Positions 5,375 to 64,000 of a stretch of 64,000 bases of DNA are shown piece after piece. Source of the stretch: Arenibacter catalasegens (lineage in GTDB: Bacteria > Bacteroidota > Bacteroidia > Flavobacteriales > Flavobacteriaceae); assembly GCF_002909235.1 (NCBI RefSeq), contig NZ_PHQQ01000001.1:186001-250000 (forward strand), given 5' to 3'. A program made the position numbers and the translations under genes. Under the pieces are notes generated by a model. The model worked only from the letters and a program-made list of their open reading frames with translations, was not told the DNA's origin and did not search any database. Position 1 is the first letter of the stretch; each line of letters opens with the position of its first letter.

Positions 5375-5994
5375 AGGATGAACCCCTTAAAATAAGGTCA
5401 TATTGTAGCATATTCAACAATAAGGTGATGTTGAACGATCAGTTGCTCTTTGAAAGCCCGGAAACCGATTTTTCTACCTTTATAAAGTTGGCCTATAAAA
5501 AGATGGATACCAACTATCCTAAGTTTTTTAAAATGGACAACCTGAGTAAACTTGGGTTTTTGGCCGCCGATATTTTACTTACCCAACTGTCCAAAGATTT
5601 TGGAAACCTTAATAATATTGCCTTGGCATTTTCCAATAGTGCGTCTAGTCTGGACACAGATAGGAAACACCAAAATTCTATTATGGACAAAGAAAACTAT
5701 TTTCCTAGTCCCGCTATTTTTGTCTATACCTTACCCAACATATGCCTTGGAGAGATTAGTATTAGACATAAGCTATATTCTGAAAATAGTTTTTTTATCT
5801 TTAACCACTTTAATGCGGGATATCTATTCGACTATGCAACGAGTTTAATTAAAACTGGAAAAGCTGACGAAGTGTTGTGCGGATGGATAAACTGTGACGC
5901 AGAAGACTACGAAGCATTTTTATACTTAGTTTCTAAGGAAGGAAGCATTGCACATAACAAAGAAGAAATAATAAAATTGTACACGACCAAATGA
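5371..5994 (+). CDS. short ketosynthase-like protein lacking the catalytic triad
   Basis: 207 residues. Stretches such as FPSPAIFVYTLPNICLGEISIRH and the following FNAGYLFDYATSLIKTGKADEVLCGWI resemble the N-terminal half of a beta-ketoacyl synthase. There is no Cys in the nucleophile position and neither of the two downstream histidine motifs, because the C-terminal half is missing. Loss of activity with retained fold suggests a structural partner, perhaps for the ketosynthase directly upstream. Start and stop overlap both neighbours by 4 bases, which argues that it is a kept gene and not debris. Confidence 0.75.
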   Translation: MKDEPLKIRSYCSIFNNKVMLNDQLLFESPETDFSTFIKLAYKKMDTNYPKFFKMDNLSKLGFLAADILLTQLSKDFGNLNNIALAFSNSASSLDTDRKHQNSIMDKENYFPSPAIFVYTLPNICLGEISIRHKLYSENSFFIFNHFNAGYLFDYATSLIKTGKADEVLCGWINCDAEDYEAFLYLVSKEGSIAHNKEEIIKLYTTK

Positions 5995-6248
5995 GCGATT
6001 TAAAACAAGAACTAAAGGAAAAAATTATATCTCAATTAAACTTGGAGGACATTGCAATCGATGAAATTGCAGATAACGATCCTCTGTTTGGTGATGGCCT
6101 GGGACTGGACTCCATTGATGCATTGGAACTCATCGTTATGTTGGATAAGGATTATGGCATTAAACTTACCGACCCCAAAGAGGGCAAAAAAATATTTGAG
6201 TCCATTGAAGTAATGGCAAATTATATTGCAGAACATCGCACAAAATAA
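5991..6248 (+). CDS. acyl carrier protein
   Basis: 85 residues, acidic and helical, with the 4'-phosphopantetheine attachment serine at residue 41 in the motif GLDSIDALEL. This is the carrier on which the pigment polyene or fatty chain is built. It overlaps the preceding ketosynthase-like gene by 4 bases and is followed by a 100-base gap and another ketosynthase. It is clearly distinct from the housekeeping AcpP by context and by the unusual GDGLGLDS lead-in. Phosphopantetheinylation must come from a transferase encoded elsewhere. Confidence 0.92.
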   Translation: MSDLKQELKEKIISQLNLEDIAIDEIADNDPLFGDGLGLDSIDALELIVMLDKDYGIKLTDPKEGKKIFESIEVMANYIAEHRTK

Positions 6249-6348
6249 TCCGGGTACTTCTAAAATAACCAAGGCTTTGCGTTTATTCACTTTAAAAAAG
6301 AATTGGTTACCTCTAAGAAAATCCAAACCTTAAAATATAAAAAGTTAC

Positions 6349-54118: not shown

Positions 54119-54192
54119 GGCCTCGTGGCGCAACTGAATAGCGCATCTGATTACGGCTCAGAAGGTTACTGGTTTGAATCCAGTCGAGGTCA
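54119..54192 (+). tRNA. tRNA-Arg (anticodon ACG)
   Basis: A complete cloverleaf can be folded: 7-bp acceptor GGCCTCG with CGAGGTC (one G-U), D stem GCGC with GCGC, anticodon stem TCTGA with TCAGA around loop TTACGGC (anticodon ACG, reads CGU/CGC/CGA after A-to-I editing), and T stem ACTGG with CCAGT around TTTGAAT. The discriminator base is A at 54192; CCA is not encoded. Its 3' end borders accessory DNA, so it is a candidate integration site. Confidence 0.95.
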
Positions 54193-54202
54193 CTAATAAA
54201 AT

Positions 54203-55283: not shown

Positions 55284-56732
55284 TCAAAAAAGGCTATCAG
55301 GGTACTTCTCAATCTCAATACCTGTAAGTTCGTCCATGGACTTCTGTAATTGTTTTATTATAGATTTTGTTTCTCTGAATTGTTGAGCTTCTATCACTTT
55401 TATGAAATTGACTTCCTTTTCATATTTATCAATAACAACTTGTTCTATTTCGTCTAATGATACTCTAAAATATTCTTTTCTATAATTCACTTTATTGATG
55501 CGTCTATCATCAAATTCTTTGTGCAATAGGTTCTCAAGTCCAGGGGCATTTTCCGAAAAAATCATTGCGTGTAAATCAAACGTAAATGGTACGGAAGCAT
55601 CTCCTAGTTCTTTTACCCTGTCCAATGGCTCAAGTCTTCTTGTCATTCCAATTTTATAAACATTTTCTCCAAATGAACCAAGGTTAGAAATTATGTAAAC
55701 GTGTCCCGATTTTGTTTCTTGAGCTCTTGAAATTGCCCTTTCCTTTGCCTCATGGGCTTCCTTTAAATTCTGTTCTAATTGAGCGATTCGCAAATTCAGT
55801 TCATCCAACTTTTCTCCGCTGACCAATCCCAAATCTCTTTTAGCGAGTTCTAAAGCTTTTTGAAAACGCTTTTCTTCCATTTCCGCATTTTTCCTAGCCA
55901 TTTCAAATTCTCGTTGCGCTCTTTCCTCTTCTCTTTGTTCTTCCCTATTCGCCCGTTCTTCTTCTTTTTCCTGATACTTTTTTTGTGCTAATTCATGTAT
56001 TAAATGAAGCTCCTCCAATTTTAATCTTAAATACTCGTCTATTATAAATGTATTGTTTGATTGACCAAGTTTATTAATTGCGTTAAAAGCTCTTTTAATA
56101 CGCTCCTCAAAACGCCTTACATTATTCCAGCGTACTTTTGAAATTAATGCGTCACATTCTCCATTGAATGCTCGTAAGGTTAAATTAATATATCTCCTTG
56201 TCATTATTTCCCCTTGTTTCCTGCTATTACCAACAGTCCATTGGGTATTACAAACGCAAGCTCGCCCATCTTTTATCAACTCCTTTTGTCTTGTAACTAT
56301 TTGTGTAATCCTTTCTTGATATTTTTCCGAAGTTTCTAAATCAAAAATCGGCTCATAAATACCGAGTTCAACAAATTCTAAATCATTTTGGTAAAGTCTA
56401 ATGTCTTCCTCCAATTCTTTAAAAATTGATTTTGCCTTTATGAATTTATCATTCAATTCCGTGGCACTTGATTGAATTTCAGACAACTCCATATTCTTTA
56501 AATCAATCTCGCCCTCAATTGATACAATTCCACTAAATCTTGTTAAATCAGATTTTAGTTTGTTGTTTTCCTCAATTCTTGTGTTGAGTTGGAAATTCGT
56601 ATTCTCGATTTCCTTATGTAGTTTGAGCTTTACTTTTTTACAGTGATTTAGTAAAATAAACAATGCAATTCCTAAAGCTAAAATTGTAATGGTTAGTCCT
56701 GTTGTCATTGGTTTAGATCGGTTTTTTGGCAT
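55284..56732 (-). CDS. DUF4041/T5orf172 GIY-YIG nuclease-family protein with coiled coil
   Basis: 482 residues. An N-terminal membrane helix (about 11-28) is followed by a coiled coil (30-110), a DUF4041-like middle part (110-225, with ACVCNTQW), a long charged coiled coil (225-345, rich in EERANREEQ) and a T5orf172/Mug113 GIY-YIG domain (345-440): GHVYIISNLG and VYKIGMTRRLEPLDRV match the two strands and the Arg helix, and LENLLHKEFDDRR supplies a Glu. Proteins of this build are common in mobile DNA and defence islands. Substrate, DNA or RNA, is not known. Confidence 0.85.
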   Translation of the reverse strand: MPKNRSKPMTTGLTITILALGIALFILLNHCKKVKLKLHKEIENTNFQLNTRIEENNKLKSDLTRFSGIVSIEGEIDLKNMELSEIQSSATELNDKFIKAKSIFKELEEDIRLYQNDLEFVELGIYEPIFDLETSEKYQERITQIVTRQKELIKDGRACVCNTQWTVGNSRKQGEIMTRRYINLTLRAFNGECDALISKVRWNNVRRFEERIKRAFNAINKLGQSNNTFIIDEYLRLKLEELHLIHELAQKKYQEKEEERANREEQREEERAQREFEMARKNAEMEEKRFQKALELAKRDLGLVSGEKLDELNLRIAQLEQNLKEAHEAKERAISRAQETKSGHVYIISNLGSFGENVYKIGMTRRLEPLDRVKELGDASVPFTFDLHAMIFSENAPGLENLLHKEFDDRRINKVNYRKEYFRVSLDEIEQVVIDKYEKEVNFIKVIEAQQFRETKSIIKQLQKSMDELTGIEIEKYPDSLF

Positions 56733-56773: not shown

Positions 56774-56799
56774 ACATTACGGTAATATTACCGTAATGT
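56774..56799. promoter_or_regulatory. 26-bp perfect palindrome upstream of the GIY-YIG gene
   Basis: The half-site ACATTACGGTAAT is followed by its exact reverse complement, without spacer. It lies 42-67 bases upstream of the start of the GIY-YIG gene (minus strand), where an operator for a dimeric regulator would be expected. A 15-base core, TTACGGTAATATTAC, recurs in the doubled-word array at 63905-63919. Confidence 0.7.
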
Positions 56800-60215: not shown

Positions 60216-60515
60216 ATGGAATTATTAAGATTAAAGGAAATTTTAGGTAAAAAAGGGATATCCGGAAAGGACTTAGCGGAGACTGTAGGCGTTAGCCCTG
60301 TAAGTATCTCTAATATTGTTCAGGGGAATAGTTTTCCAAAACCTGATTTACTATTGTCTATTGCCAAAGAATTGGAAGTCGATGTAAGGGAATTGTTCAG
60401 ACCGACAAAAGGCGGGGCTATTGTGAACGGATTTATTGAATATGAAGATGAGGTGTATAGAGTCCTGTCCTTAGCGGACCTCGAAGAACTAATCGAAAAA
60501 ATAAAGGGAAACTAA
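60216..60515 (+). CDS. XRE-family helix-turn-helix regulator
   Basis: 99 residues. The N-terminal 60 residues form a Cro/C1 type HTH: LKEILGKKGISGKDLAETV, GVSPVSISNIVQG (recognition helix) and FPKPDLLLSIAKELEVDVRELF. A short C-terminal extension (VNGFIEYEDEVYRVLSLADLEELIEKI) is probably a dimerisation part. It sits divergent from an early-type operon with operator repeats in between, like a lysogeny switch. Confidence 0.88.
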   Translation: MELLRLKEILGKKGISGKDLAETVGVSPVSISNIVQGNSFPKPDLLLSIAKELEVDVRELFRPTKGGAIVNGFIEYEDEVYRVLSLADLEELIEKIKGN

Positions 60516-61243: not shown

Positions 61244-63472
61244 TTACACCAAGGCTATTTCATGCTTACTATTTCCGTTGATAGTACTTTTGATTAGTTT
61301 ACCCCTCACTAACCTATTATTTAATTCAAATTCAAAAAGTCCGTACCAGTTGGGGATGTACTCACCATTTACAAAAGTTTTACCTTCCAACTGTTCTACT
61401 GTTTCGGGATATACAAACCCGTCAAAAGTCATTAACTGACCATTTATAAAAGGCTCTCCCAAGTCTTTATTGAGTACGCTTGAATTTTCAGAAACACCAT
61501 CAAGTATTAAACTAGTGTAACAGTTTGAAGATGCAAATGTTAAATGACCATAAGGCTCTCCGTATACGCTTGTGGCTATTAACCTACTGTGTCTTTTTAA
61601 GCAATTAAAAGGAGTTAGCAATAAGTTTCCAGTTGTTTCAGGTGAAAAAATACCGCCAGATGGTAGTTCTGAAAAATCATCTTGCCAAGTCCTTAAATAA
61701 TATGCAGTACCCACTTTTTTTAAATGCCTAAAGAATAAATCTTGATCGTAGGGGGTATCTTCGTCCTGAAACAATCTTGATGGTTTTATCCTAGCAAGTT
61801 CGTAGGCTTCCAGATCCGCCCTGATCTTGCTTACCTTTGAGTAAGTGTTTGCGGGTTGGTCTTTTAAAGAGGTGTTATACTCCGCTTTACCATGTGGTGC
61901 TGTAAGTCCAAAAACTTCCTCATATCCGCTCCCCCCTTTTTCGTATCCTATCTCTACTTTAGTGTAAAAGTTATCGGTTAAAAATGTCCTCTTGGCATTG
62001 CTTGCCGATATGTATTGAAATTGATTATTAACCGTCCTACCCAACTTAACCCCTACAAAGTCCTGTTGTGTATATTCGTATTTTTCAAGCCTGAAATATT
62101 CCTTTCCGTTTACTTCCTCTATTGACCACATTAAAGGCAAAGCCATATAATAAGATTCGTAGGCATCCTTTAGGCTTGTGTTGAATTGTTTAAATGGTAT
62201 CAGTTCCCCATTAGCATCTTTTCTTTGTGTTCCTAAATCAAAACCCCTAGCCCAGAAACCAGAACCTACACCCAATAATGACCACTCCCCATCTTCGTTA
62301 TATCCTATATCTTGTCTGCCGAATAGATTGGATTTAAACAGCCCCTTTTCTCCTGTAATCTTCTCTAAAAGCCTGTCGAATATCTCATGTGGTAATAGTG
62401 TCTTTGCTTCCGAACTTGGGAATATAGAACTGCTCTCAATTGTTAAAGCCGTGTCTTGGTATTCCCATTTGACCGTTGGACTACCGCCCCCGCTATTATG
62501 AACATGGCAGACAATAGCAACACTTTCGCCCTCTTGCAATGAAATAGGGTAATCATCAAATATTACCTCCCCTTCGTTCAAAGTACCGCCCGTATCAACA
62601 AGCCCTAATTGTGTCCTGCTACCATCCACATATACCAATACATCTGCAACCTTTTTATATCTTACCTCTTCGATTTCAAGATACCCCGCATTCGTATCCA
62701 ATATCCTGACCAATATCTTCCCGTTAAGCGTCAATGTCTTGTTTTGGTCTGCATCGAAATAAAGCAAAGTGCCTACGCTTCCTTCTTGGTATGTGTCACT
62801 TGAATAATAAACTTTATCACTACCTTCCGAAGTCCCGTCTATGTGTCCAGGGTCACTAGTTGCGTCGTTCTTTAATTGAAAAGGTACTGCCCTAACAGTA
62901 TCTTCACCGCTGCCTGTAAAAGTTACTTCCTGCGCCACATAATCATCTACCTCCAATTCTGTTTTACGGTAAATTTCACGGCCTGTCACTTGCTCGGTGA
63001 TCGTTGATAATTCGGTTATATCCTTGTTGTCGGCACTTTTAGTATTTACCAGATCGTAGGTATTTGAAATCCTTGACCTAACCCTGTCATAAAGCCCACC
63101 TTGAGTAAAAGGTACGGAAAACAGTCTTTTGCCGTTAGATTCATTGAACTCGCCTAACATTAAATCGAGATTGTAGGTTTGCGATTCCCAATCCTCCCCG
63201 ATTTTCGTTTTACTTTTTGCCCTCTTTGTTATTGCTGCCTTTACACTGTACCCATAAACATTGATCAGTCCGTCTATGTAATTAACCCCCTCCCCGACTA
63301 TCTCGACCTTTGTGTTTATCTTTCGTAAAGTCCCCCCCCCTTCGCTATCACGCTCAAATGCTTTATCATCATTATCCCAATTAAGAACATCTTCTTTTAA
63401 TTCAAGAGGTTCCCTGTTTTCGCTTGACAGTTCAAAAACATGGTTGTTGTCATTGTGCCCTAAATTTCCCAT
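61244..63472 (-). CDS. phage tail/baseplate-type structural protein (742 aa)
   Basis: A large acidic protein with no signal peptide. The start (NHVFELSSENREPLELKEDV, LNWDNDDKAFERDSEGGGTL, RKINTKVEIVGEGVNYIDG) and the body resemble structural proteins of flavobacterial temperate phages, usually located behind the tape measure. A central part (about 290-345) looks like a strand-rich insert, and the end carries LMTFDGFVYPETVEQLEGK. The exact role is not proven. Its upstream side has an (ATT)8 tract and then the doubled-word region. Confidence 0.6.
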   Translation of the reverse strand: MGNLGHNDNNHVFELSSENREPLELKEDVLNWDNDDKAFERDSEGGGTLRKINTKVEIVGEGVNYIDGLINVYGYSVKAAITKRAKSKTKIGEDWESQTYNLDLMLGEFNESNGKRLFSVPFTQGGLYDRVRSRISNTYDLVNTKSADNKDITELSTITEQVTGREIYRKTELEVDDYVAQEVTFTGSGEDTVRAVPFQLKNDATSDPGHIDGTSEGSDKVYYSSDTYQEGSVGTLLYFDADQNKTLTLNGKILVRILDTNAGYLEIEEVRYKKVADVLVYVDGSRTQLGLVDTGGTLNEGEVIFDDYPISLQEGESVAIVCHVHNSGGGSPTVKWEYQDTALTIESSSIFPSSEAKTLLPHEIFDRLLEKITGEKGLFKSNLFGRQDIGYNEDGEWSLLGVGSGFWARGFDLGTQRKDANGELIPFKQFNTSLKDAYESYYMALPLMWSIEEVNGKEYFRLEKYEYTQQDFVGVKLGRTVNNQFQYISASNAKRTFLTDNFYTKVEIGYEKGGSGYEEVFGLTAPHGKAEYNTSLKDQPANTYSKVSKIRADLEAYELARIKPSRLFQDEDTPYDQDLFFRHLKKVGTAYYLRTWQDDFSELPSGGIFSPETTGNLLLTPFNCLKRHSRLIATSVYGEPYGHLTFASSNCYTSLILDGVSENSSVLNKDLGEPFINGQLMTFDGFVYPETVEQLEGKTFVNGEYIPNWYGLFEFELNNRLVRGKLIKSTINGNSKHEIALV

Positions 63473-63516: not shown

Positions 63517-63549
63517 TAGAATCGTTTTAAATAGGTGACCTAAAAAACC

Positions 63550-63995
63550 TACCCGTAATATACCCGTTGTGTCTAATGGGCCTTTCCTAAGAATTCCTAA
63601 GATTACGGCATTGCAATAAGCGGATTGCCTAAACTGATCAATCGCACTAAGGTTACACTAAGGATATTTAAAAACCCTCGCCCTAATCTTACCAATTCTT
63701 ACCAATTCACGAAGCCTTGCCGTAATCGTGCCGTAATATTCACTAGACCTTGAATCCGTAGATTTCCGTAGTTATTCCTTAGGGAAACCTTAGGAAACCC
63801 TCGCCCTACCCTAACGTAACCCTAACGTAGTTTTGATAAAAGAACAATCGACAACCTTACCGTAACCTTACCGTTGTTATCAGATTAAATATCATTGTTT
63901 ACCCTTACGGTAATATTACGGTTCTACATGGGTAACCCTCGTTGTAATCTCGTTGTTCAACCTTGAGGTGTAAATCATTCGAGTATTTTCGAGTA
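63550..63995. repeat. array of doubled words, each pair different, 10-11 bp period
   Basis: Twelve pairs: TACCCGT (63550/63561), TTCCTAAGA (63584/63594), CACTAAGG (63645/63656), CTTACCAATT (63688/63698), TGCCGTAAT (63718/63729), TCCGTAG (63755/63765), CCTTAGG (63777/63788), ACCCTAACGTA (63808/63819), AACCTTACCGT (63853/63864), TTACGGT (63905/63916), CTCGTTGT (63938/63949), TTCGAGTA (63978/63988). Each pair has a period of 10 or 11. Pairs are 22-62 bases apart, and the array reaches the window end. Words share a C-rich or CGTAA-like flavour, but no word repeats between pairs. Confidence 0.9.
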
Positions 63996-64000
63996 AATTT

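Follow-up and report, generated by a model that had tools for sequence, protein, structure and literature searches.

An array of putative terminase-recognition sites of many tailed phages in a satellite-like element of Arenibacter catalasegens

In a stretch of 64,000 nucleotides from Arenibacter catalasegens (hereafter, the window), we studied an array of different short words, each written twice at a distance of 10 or 11 bp, and found that ordinary phages carry one such pair within terS, the gene for the terminase small subunit, where it falls in the codons of the DNA-binding domain. It is well supported that the array sites are of the same sequence type as those in terS. The array probably gathers putative TerS-recognition (pac-like) sites of many tailed phages, which would let a phage satellite be packaged by many helpers; judging from sequence, the identity of the sites as TerS-recognition-type is well supported, and packaging of the satellite through them is what we infer. 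As the helpers could be pac or cos phages, “terminase-recognition site” is the safer term.

The array and the element that carries it

The initial annotation had described twelve tandem word pairs with a period of 10 or 11 between positions 63550 and 63995, and had held that chance cannot give such a density. All of them are present (12/12 start positions reproduced), and the statement on chance holds as well: the 481 bp from 63520 to 64000 contain 13 exact, non-simple pairs of 7–12 bp (5 at lag 10 and 8 at lag 11), versus a mean of 0.08 and a maximum of 2 in 2000 dinucleotide-preserving shuffles, the very check that had been named for it. The same stretch gave zero pairs at all other lags from 4 to 40, and the remainder of the 64-kb window has just 9 scattered lag-10/11 pairs, which is the level of neighbouring lags. 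Following the array past position 64000, as had been suggested, on contig positions 245001–262000 (L002; window position = L002 position + 59000), we found one more site at 64034–64054, where the array ends; a lag-11 pair at 64346 is part of the iteron origin adjoining the primase gene and not of the array. The sites inside the window are as follows:

63548..63568, − strand: site 1, lag 11, AACGGGTATATTACGGGTAGG
63584..63604, + strand (best reading): site 2, lag 10, TTCCTAAGAATTCCTAAGATT; top match of the lag-10 TerS model
63643..63663, + strand (best reading): site 3, lag 11, CGCACTAAGGTTACACTAAGG
63685..63705, − strand: site 4, lag 10, TTGGTAAGAATTGGTAAGATT; 21/21 (25 bp with flank) to the terS of viral contig L191
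63715..63735, − strand: site 5, lag 11, TACGGCACGATTACGGCAAGG; 19/21 to the terS of Synechococcus phage Yong-M3-232
63753..63773, − strand: site 6, lag 10, AACTACGGAAATCTACGGATT
63777..63797, − strand: site 7, lag 11, TTTCCTAAGGTTTCCCTAAGG
63809..63829, − strand, ambiguous: site 8, lag 11, TACGTTAGGGTTACGTTAGGG
63855..63875, − strand: site 9, lag 11, AACGGTAAGGTTACGGTAAGG; identical in the terS of Streptococcus phage IPP24 and in a streptococcal satellite array site
63903..63923, − strand: site 10, lag 11, AACCGTAATATTACCGTAAGG
63937..63957, − strand: site 11, lag 11, AACAACGAGATTACAACGAGG
63976..63996, − strand: site 12, lag 10, TTACTCGAAAATACTCGAATG; of the type of a Flavobacteriaceae prophage terS, ATACTCGGAAATACTCGGATT

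The strands are mixed, with sites 2 and 3 best read on +, site 8 on either and the others on −. The copies of a pair do match, as first described, but the different pairs are not unrelated words, as had also been claimed: with strand and phase considered, they fall into two loose consensus families, one at lag 11 and one at lag 10. A CRISPR array was rejected, as no constant repeat of 20 bp or more was found, and so were coding repeats, the lags not being multiples of three.

The array lies in a non-coding gap of about 940 bp, between the gene for a 742-aa virion protein and that for a 798-aa primase-helicase-like protein. It had been placed beside a phage tail-like gene in accessory DNA, and this was correct, the gene being that of the 742-aa virion protein and the accessory DNA a satellite-like element with these features:

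54148..54193, + strand: attachment repeat, a 46-bp exact repeat, 3' part of the tRNA-Arg(ACG) gene at 54119–54193
55284..56732, − strand: PD-Lambda-1-like anti-phage defence gene, cargo (DUF4041 + T5orf172; PADLOC E 2.6e-173; Pfam)
60216..60515, + strand: XRE/CI-type repressor gene (Pfam HTH_3, E 5e-10)
61244..63472, − strand: gene for the 742-aa phage virion structural (tail-tip-like) protein (phrog_15220, E 7.5e-94), downstream of the array

A second copy of the 46-bp att repeat stands at window-coordinate 70124 (outside the window), and the two copies bound an element of about 16 kb, whose content fits a phage satellite. As one looks for in a satellite, it carries a tyrosine integrase together with the att repeats in tRNA-Arg, and it has a replication module made of the 798-aa phrog_28855-like primase-helicase gene, with a Walker-type motif (found by eye), plus an origin. 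Its HTH_17-like gene is below the Pfam cut-off, with weak PHROG HTH/excisionase matches. Among the scanned element proteins, no match to terminase or capsid families was obtained, and one tail-type virion gene is present. The full-length relatives traced through the primase also fit a satellite, as all of them are elements in genomes of other Flavobacteriaceae or Bacteroidetes (viral contigs: 0). The whole locus has no close relative by DNA within the family, and none by primase or tail protein in viral contigs. In 18 genomes of the host genus, no Terminase_2 (PF03592) was found, and no local helper is thus pointed out.

In Cellulophaga phages, a homologue of the 742-aa protein sits directly after the tape-measure gene. 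As a separate observation, its gene (61244–63472) is a lone full-length tail-tip-like virion gene in a satellite-like element, and its product may alter or replace the tail tip of a helper. The array as a promoter travelling with this gene was ruled out, as none of the tail-gene homologues checked for it carries an array.

The origin of the element, made of GGTYGTAAT-like words at about 64081–64400, is separate from the array. Sister elements with readable repeats likewise show an iteron origin immediately after the primase gene, each element using a single word at spacings of 9 and 11–12 bp; in loci L056–L065, these element-specific words are paired in both orientations, and the iteron word of L064 (Maribacter flavus) is common with that of the window element. 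Since the neighbouring origin also uses paired words, one could take the array itself for the iteron origin of the element. We give this almost no credence: the origins of this satellite family have a single word per element at 9 or 11–12 bp, right after the primase gene, while the array words differ between pairs and the element's own origin lies apart. Origin mimicry, suggested by the one-word origins of the sisters, was rejected on the same three grounds of spacing, position and words, and a 12-base overlap of the array with the sister origin L060 was judged to be chance. In a Mariniflexile sister element (L047:6480–6830), we also noticed a second GGT-rich array downstream of the origin, with a 10–11 bp periodicity; its TTTTCGGTAAG-type units lie inside repeats of about 115 bp and are weakly like TerS sites.

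Self-matching words inside phage terS genes

The exact core of site 9 was found in 17 viral contigs, in 14 of which a terS-like gene contains it, in most cases immediately before terL; the other three correspond to two arrays (L068 and L081) and one primase-type gene. In terS, the pair reads AAC GGT AAG GTT ACG GTA AGG, that is N-G-K-V-T-V-R, and in Streptococcus phage IPP24 it lies in the gene directly before the terminase gene. Sites located in terS were also found in Javan326, Yong-M3-232, L191, L095 and Nekkels. The cluster in L068 (1264–1484; AACACTAAGGTTTTACTAAGG, AACACCAAGGTTACCCCAAGG, AACGGTAAGGTTACGGTAAGG) is a third array-like one, in a 15-kb viral contig.

As these 17 contigs had been chosen on DNA, a sample taken by protein similarity was needed, and we gathered 80 viral terS loci in this way (alignment A2), with 53 distinct motifs of the form N-x-K-V/I-x-x-R. 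In this lag-11 TerS subfamily, the two 9-bp words agree at 7.06/9 positions, versus 3.98/9 when synonymous codons are resampled for the same protein, and each of the 53 motifs (53/53) is above its own expectation, even though the words themselves vary between phages (CTCTAAGG, CAGCAAGG, CCCTAAGA, ACGGTCCGA and others). The same holds at lag 10 for the Bacteroidetes-type TerS (alignment A4 plus one Flavobacteriaceae prophage; n = 18), with a self-match of 6.22/9 versus 3.71/9 expected; lags 9 and 11 gave no excess self-match in these 18 genes. The self-match of the word in terS is maintained in the DNA itself and goes further than the protein requires. In PHROGs or Pfam, members of either subfamily are recognised as terminase small subunits, and the profile of the Bacteroidetes-type TerS (A3) matches the SF6-type TerS structures 3zqp/4zc3/2cmp. 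The existence of two subfamilies with lags of 11 and 10 accounts for the mixture of both lags in the array. Outside terS, a lag-11 pair (TAAGATAACCCTAAGATAACC) was seen in an intergenic position in Pseudomonas phage vB_Pae_WS1160 (L100:2495–2515).

We then set the array against terS site by site. The best terS 21-mer for each window site matches at 15–21 of 21 positions, versus an average of 9.5 and at most 14 for 300 random 21-mers, the lag-10 pool of this comparison including the site-4 phage; sites 4 and 9 alone match a phage at 21/21, the remaining ones reaching 15–19/21. BLAST of site 4 against phages gave no match; its pattern was found in four viral contigs, one of which is L191, a low-GC virus where the copy lies within terS (phrog_51, 6.9e-18; Terminase_2, 4.9e-15), shortly upstream of terL. 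The identity with this terS is exact over 25 bp, and the sequences diverge outside. Site 12 differs from its prophage counterpart by the same G/A difference in both copies, and the pattern scan of viral contigs gave no match for site 8. Two observations were made in passing on the contigs. In L191 (4062–6428), the terL beside the site-4 terS overlaps an HNH-like ORF (5630–6274), so that a homing-endonuclease-type insertion may interrupt terL; and ATTGGTAAGAATTGGTAAG is common to three high-GC (0.52–0.53) contigs (L189:6705, L190:2303, L192:3470), in a tail/baseplate-like region and not in terS.

We trained two position models that include a self-match term on phage terS sites only, excluding the site-4 phage, and scanned both strands of a 76-kb region with them (about 152,000 positions). 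The best 10 positions of the lag-11 model and the best 5 of the lag-10 model fall without exception in the array, these numbers including overlapping reads of a single site. One has to keep in mind that one amino-acid pattern used for the terS collection contained GKVTVR, which favours site 9 and not the other sites. No model match of at least 17 bits occurs in window positions 1–63000, and all the matches within the 16-kb element lie in the array. A near-palindrome upstream of the defence gene (56775–56798, TACGGTAATATTACCGTAATG) scores just below the site threshold on both strands.

The initial annotation had offered two origins for the pairs, a family of dimer-like binding sites or a duplication-making enzyme. 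The former appears essentially right, with direct-repeat sites. The latter, in which slippage, staggered-break fill-in or an RT-like copier would have made pairs without any shared recognition function, is very improbable: exact tandem copies of drifting words do resemble fresh duplications of 10–11 bp, but models built independently on terS recover the same sites in the same phase, the identities with phage terS stop at 21–25 bp, and the self-match is under selection in coding DNA, so that the terS link already contradicts this reading. Slippage as the source of the pairs was considered and rejected.

Arrays in streptococcal satellite phages

BLAST of the array against phage genomes returned, besides a Synechococcus phage terS, matches in intergenic gaps of streptococcal satellite phages (Javan742, Javan752 and others). 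These gaps hold about eight different words, each written twice at lag 11, about 32–46 bp apart. The decisive result according to the initial annotation would be pairs that differ between related loci and stay self-matched, and the streptococcal satellites do show differing sites with matched copies: AGTACAAGG in one is AGTATAAGG in another, and likewise TGGTGAGG and TGGTAAGG, ACCACAAGG and ACCCTAAGG, TAGCAAGG and TAGGCTAAGG. Some of these double changes may represent a site swapped for another site rather than a point change. The mean self-match is 8.0/9, versus 5.3 between copies of different sites. Between nearest neighbours, changes in a single copy (14) are more frequent than matched changes in both copies (7), and imperfect pairs exist, such as AATACTAAGGTTTTACAAAGG, which is common to the terS of phage Javan326 and several streptococcal satellites; the match within pairs is strong, not absolute. 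Four distinct streptococcal array sites are identical at 21/21 positions to phage terS (IPP24, Javan326, L109 and L111).

Satellites in two phyla carry arrays of terS-type sites. Among the sister satellites of the window element, that of Flavobacterium plurextorum has one non-coding canonical copy of AACGGTAAGGTTACGGTAAGG, and most of the others scanned are without detectable sites.

A regulatory role is a further option, in which TerS or a relative would repress through the sites, the satellite sensing late expression of the helper and controlling the downstream virion gene. The array does lie directly upstream of the 742-aa virion gene, on the same strand, and the SPP1 terminase is reported to repress its own synthesis, according to the title of reference 87 in PMC4737164. 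We nevertheless hold such a role to be quite improbable: the genes downstream of the streptococcal arrays are quite different, the phage copies lie within coding sequence and not at a promoter, and one promoter needs far fewer than a dozen different words.

Proposed function and comparison with known systems

Each phage would have its own site inside its own terS, a 9-bp word written twice, 11 or 10 bp apart according to the TerS subfamily, and adjacent helix-turn-helix domains of the TerS ring would recognise the two equal words from the same side of the helix. Any one active helper's terminase would then recognise its own site in the array and cut there, and the helper would package the replicated satellite DNA. 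A dozen different sites would make as many helpers available to one satellite, and with sites on both strands packaging could run in either direction. For this protein family, specific binding of TerS to pac has been difficult to demonstrate in vitro (PMC4737164, PMC9611059), so that terS might hold the repeat for another reason.

The same sites could also act as decoys, titrating or misdirecting the terminase of infecting phages as an anti-phage defence. All the sequence evidence given for packaging applies equally, many closely packed sites suit titration, and the element also bears the PD-Lambda-1 defence gene. Still, a satellite cannot do without a packaging signal, and outside the array the element showed none of these sites; moreover, a sister satellite with a single site suits packaging better than titration. 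We consider decoys unlikely, though less so than a regulatory role. Returning to packaging by many helpers, we lean, with less assurance than for the array alone, towards a broader proposal: Flavobacteriaceae and Streptococcus satellites would each, independently of the other, maintain an expandable collection of packaging signals for many helpers, spanning two TerS subfamilies, and the word pair would be the recognition code of SF6/SPP1-type TerS, with its own word for each terS.

How TerS recognises viral DNA is an open problem in the literature (PMC4737164, PMC9611059), the latter paper, a 2022 review, calling the selection by the small terminase unclear and controversial; in PICMI, a well-studied satellite system, the packaging sites of the helper phage could not be identified (PMC10803314). 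The rule suggested here (a word repeated once, at lag 10 or 11, within the codons for the DNA-binding domain of TerS) would provide candidate packaging sites for very many phages and make the question of TerS recognition directly testable. Such an array would illustrate how a satellite can free itself from reliance on one helper, and helper ranges would become predictable from sequence, including for streptococcal gene transfer. Our literature search, which covered material other than subscription literature and preprints, returned no description of arrays of different sites or of the self-matching-word rule, nor any occurrence of the site-9 sequence in the searched papers.

Satellites that mimic a single packaging signal are known, as in P4, whose cos is copied from that of P2, and in cos-type SaPIs. 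What appears new here is the array of many different packaging-type sites together with the self-matching-word rule. P4 and cos-type SaPIs resemble the present element in bearing a signal recognised by a helper terminase (as we propose here), but they carry the signal of one helper type, whereas the array has no fewer than 13 different signals, which belong to two TerS subfamilies (for satellite packaging by helper terminases, see PMC10803314 and PMC5052747). In the Streptococcus thermophilus satellite StCI-301, two candidate cos copies were reported (PMC13376191); as here, a single satellite bears multiple candidate packaging sites, but these are two near-copies of one putative cos site, without an array of different words or a link to a terS repeat. 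PICIs and SaPIs that redirect packaging specificity do so by bringing their own TerS (PMC12597102), whereas our element is without terS and carries many phage-type sites. Regarding phages, the pac sites of SPP1/SF6 and P22 are likewise situated within or at terS, that of SPP1 having direct repeats (PMC4737164, PMC9611059); boxes A–C of SPP1 are, however, spread over the promoter region and the start of terS, and the accessible parts of these two papers do not describe a self-matching pair in the codons of the DNA-binding domain. The streptococcal satellite phages of the Javan series also have an array of this type between genes, sharing one site exactly and another at 20/21; their arrays are nearly all at lag 11 and in one orientation, in a different phylum and with a different gene set.
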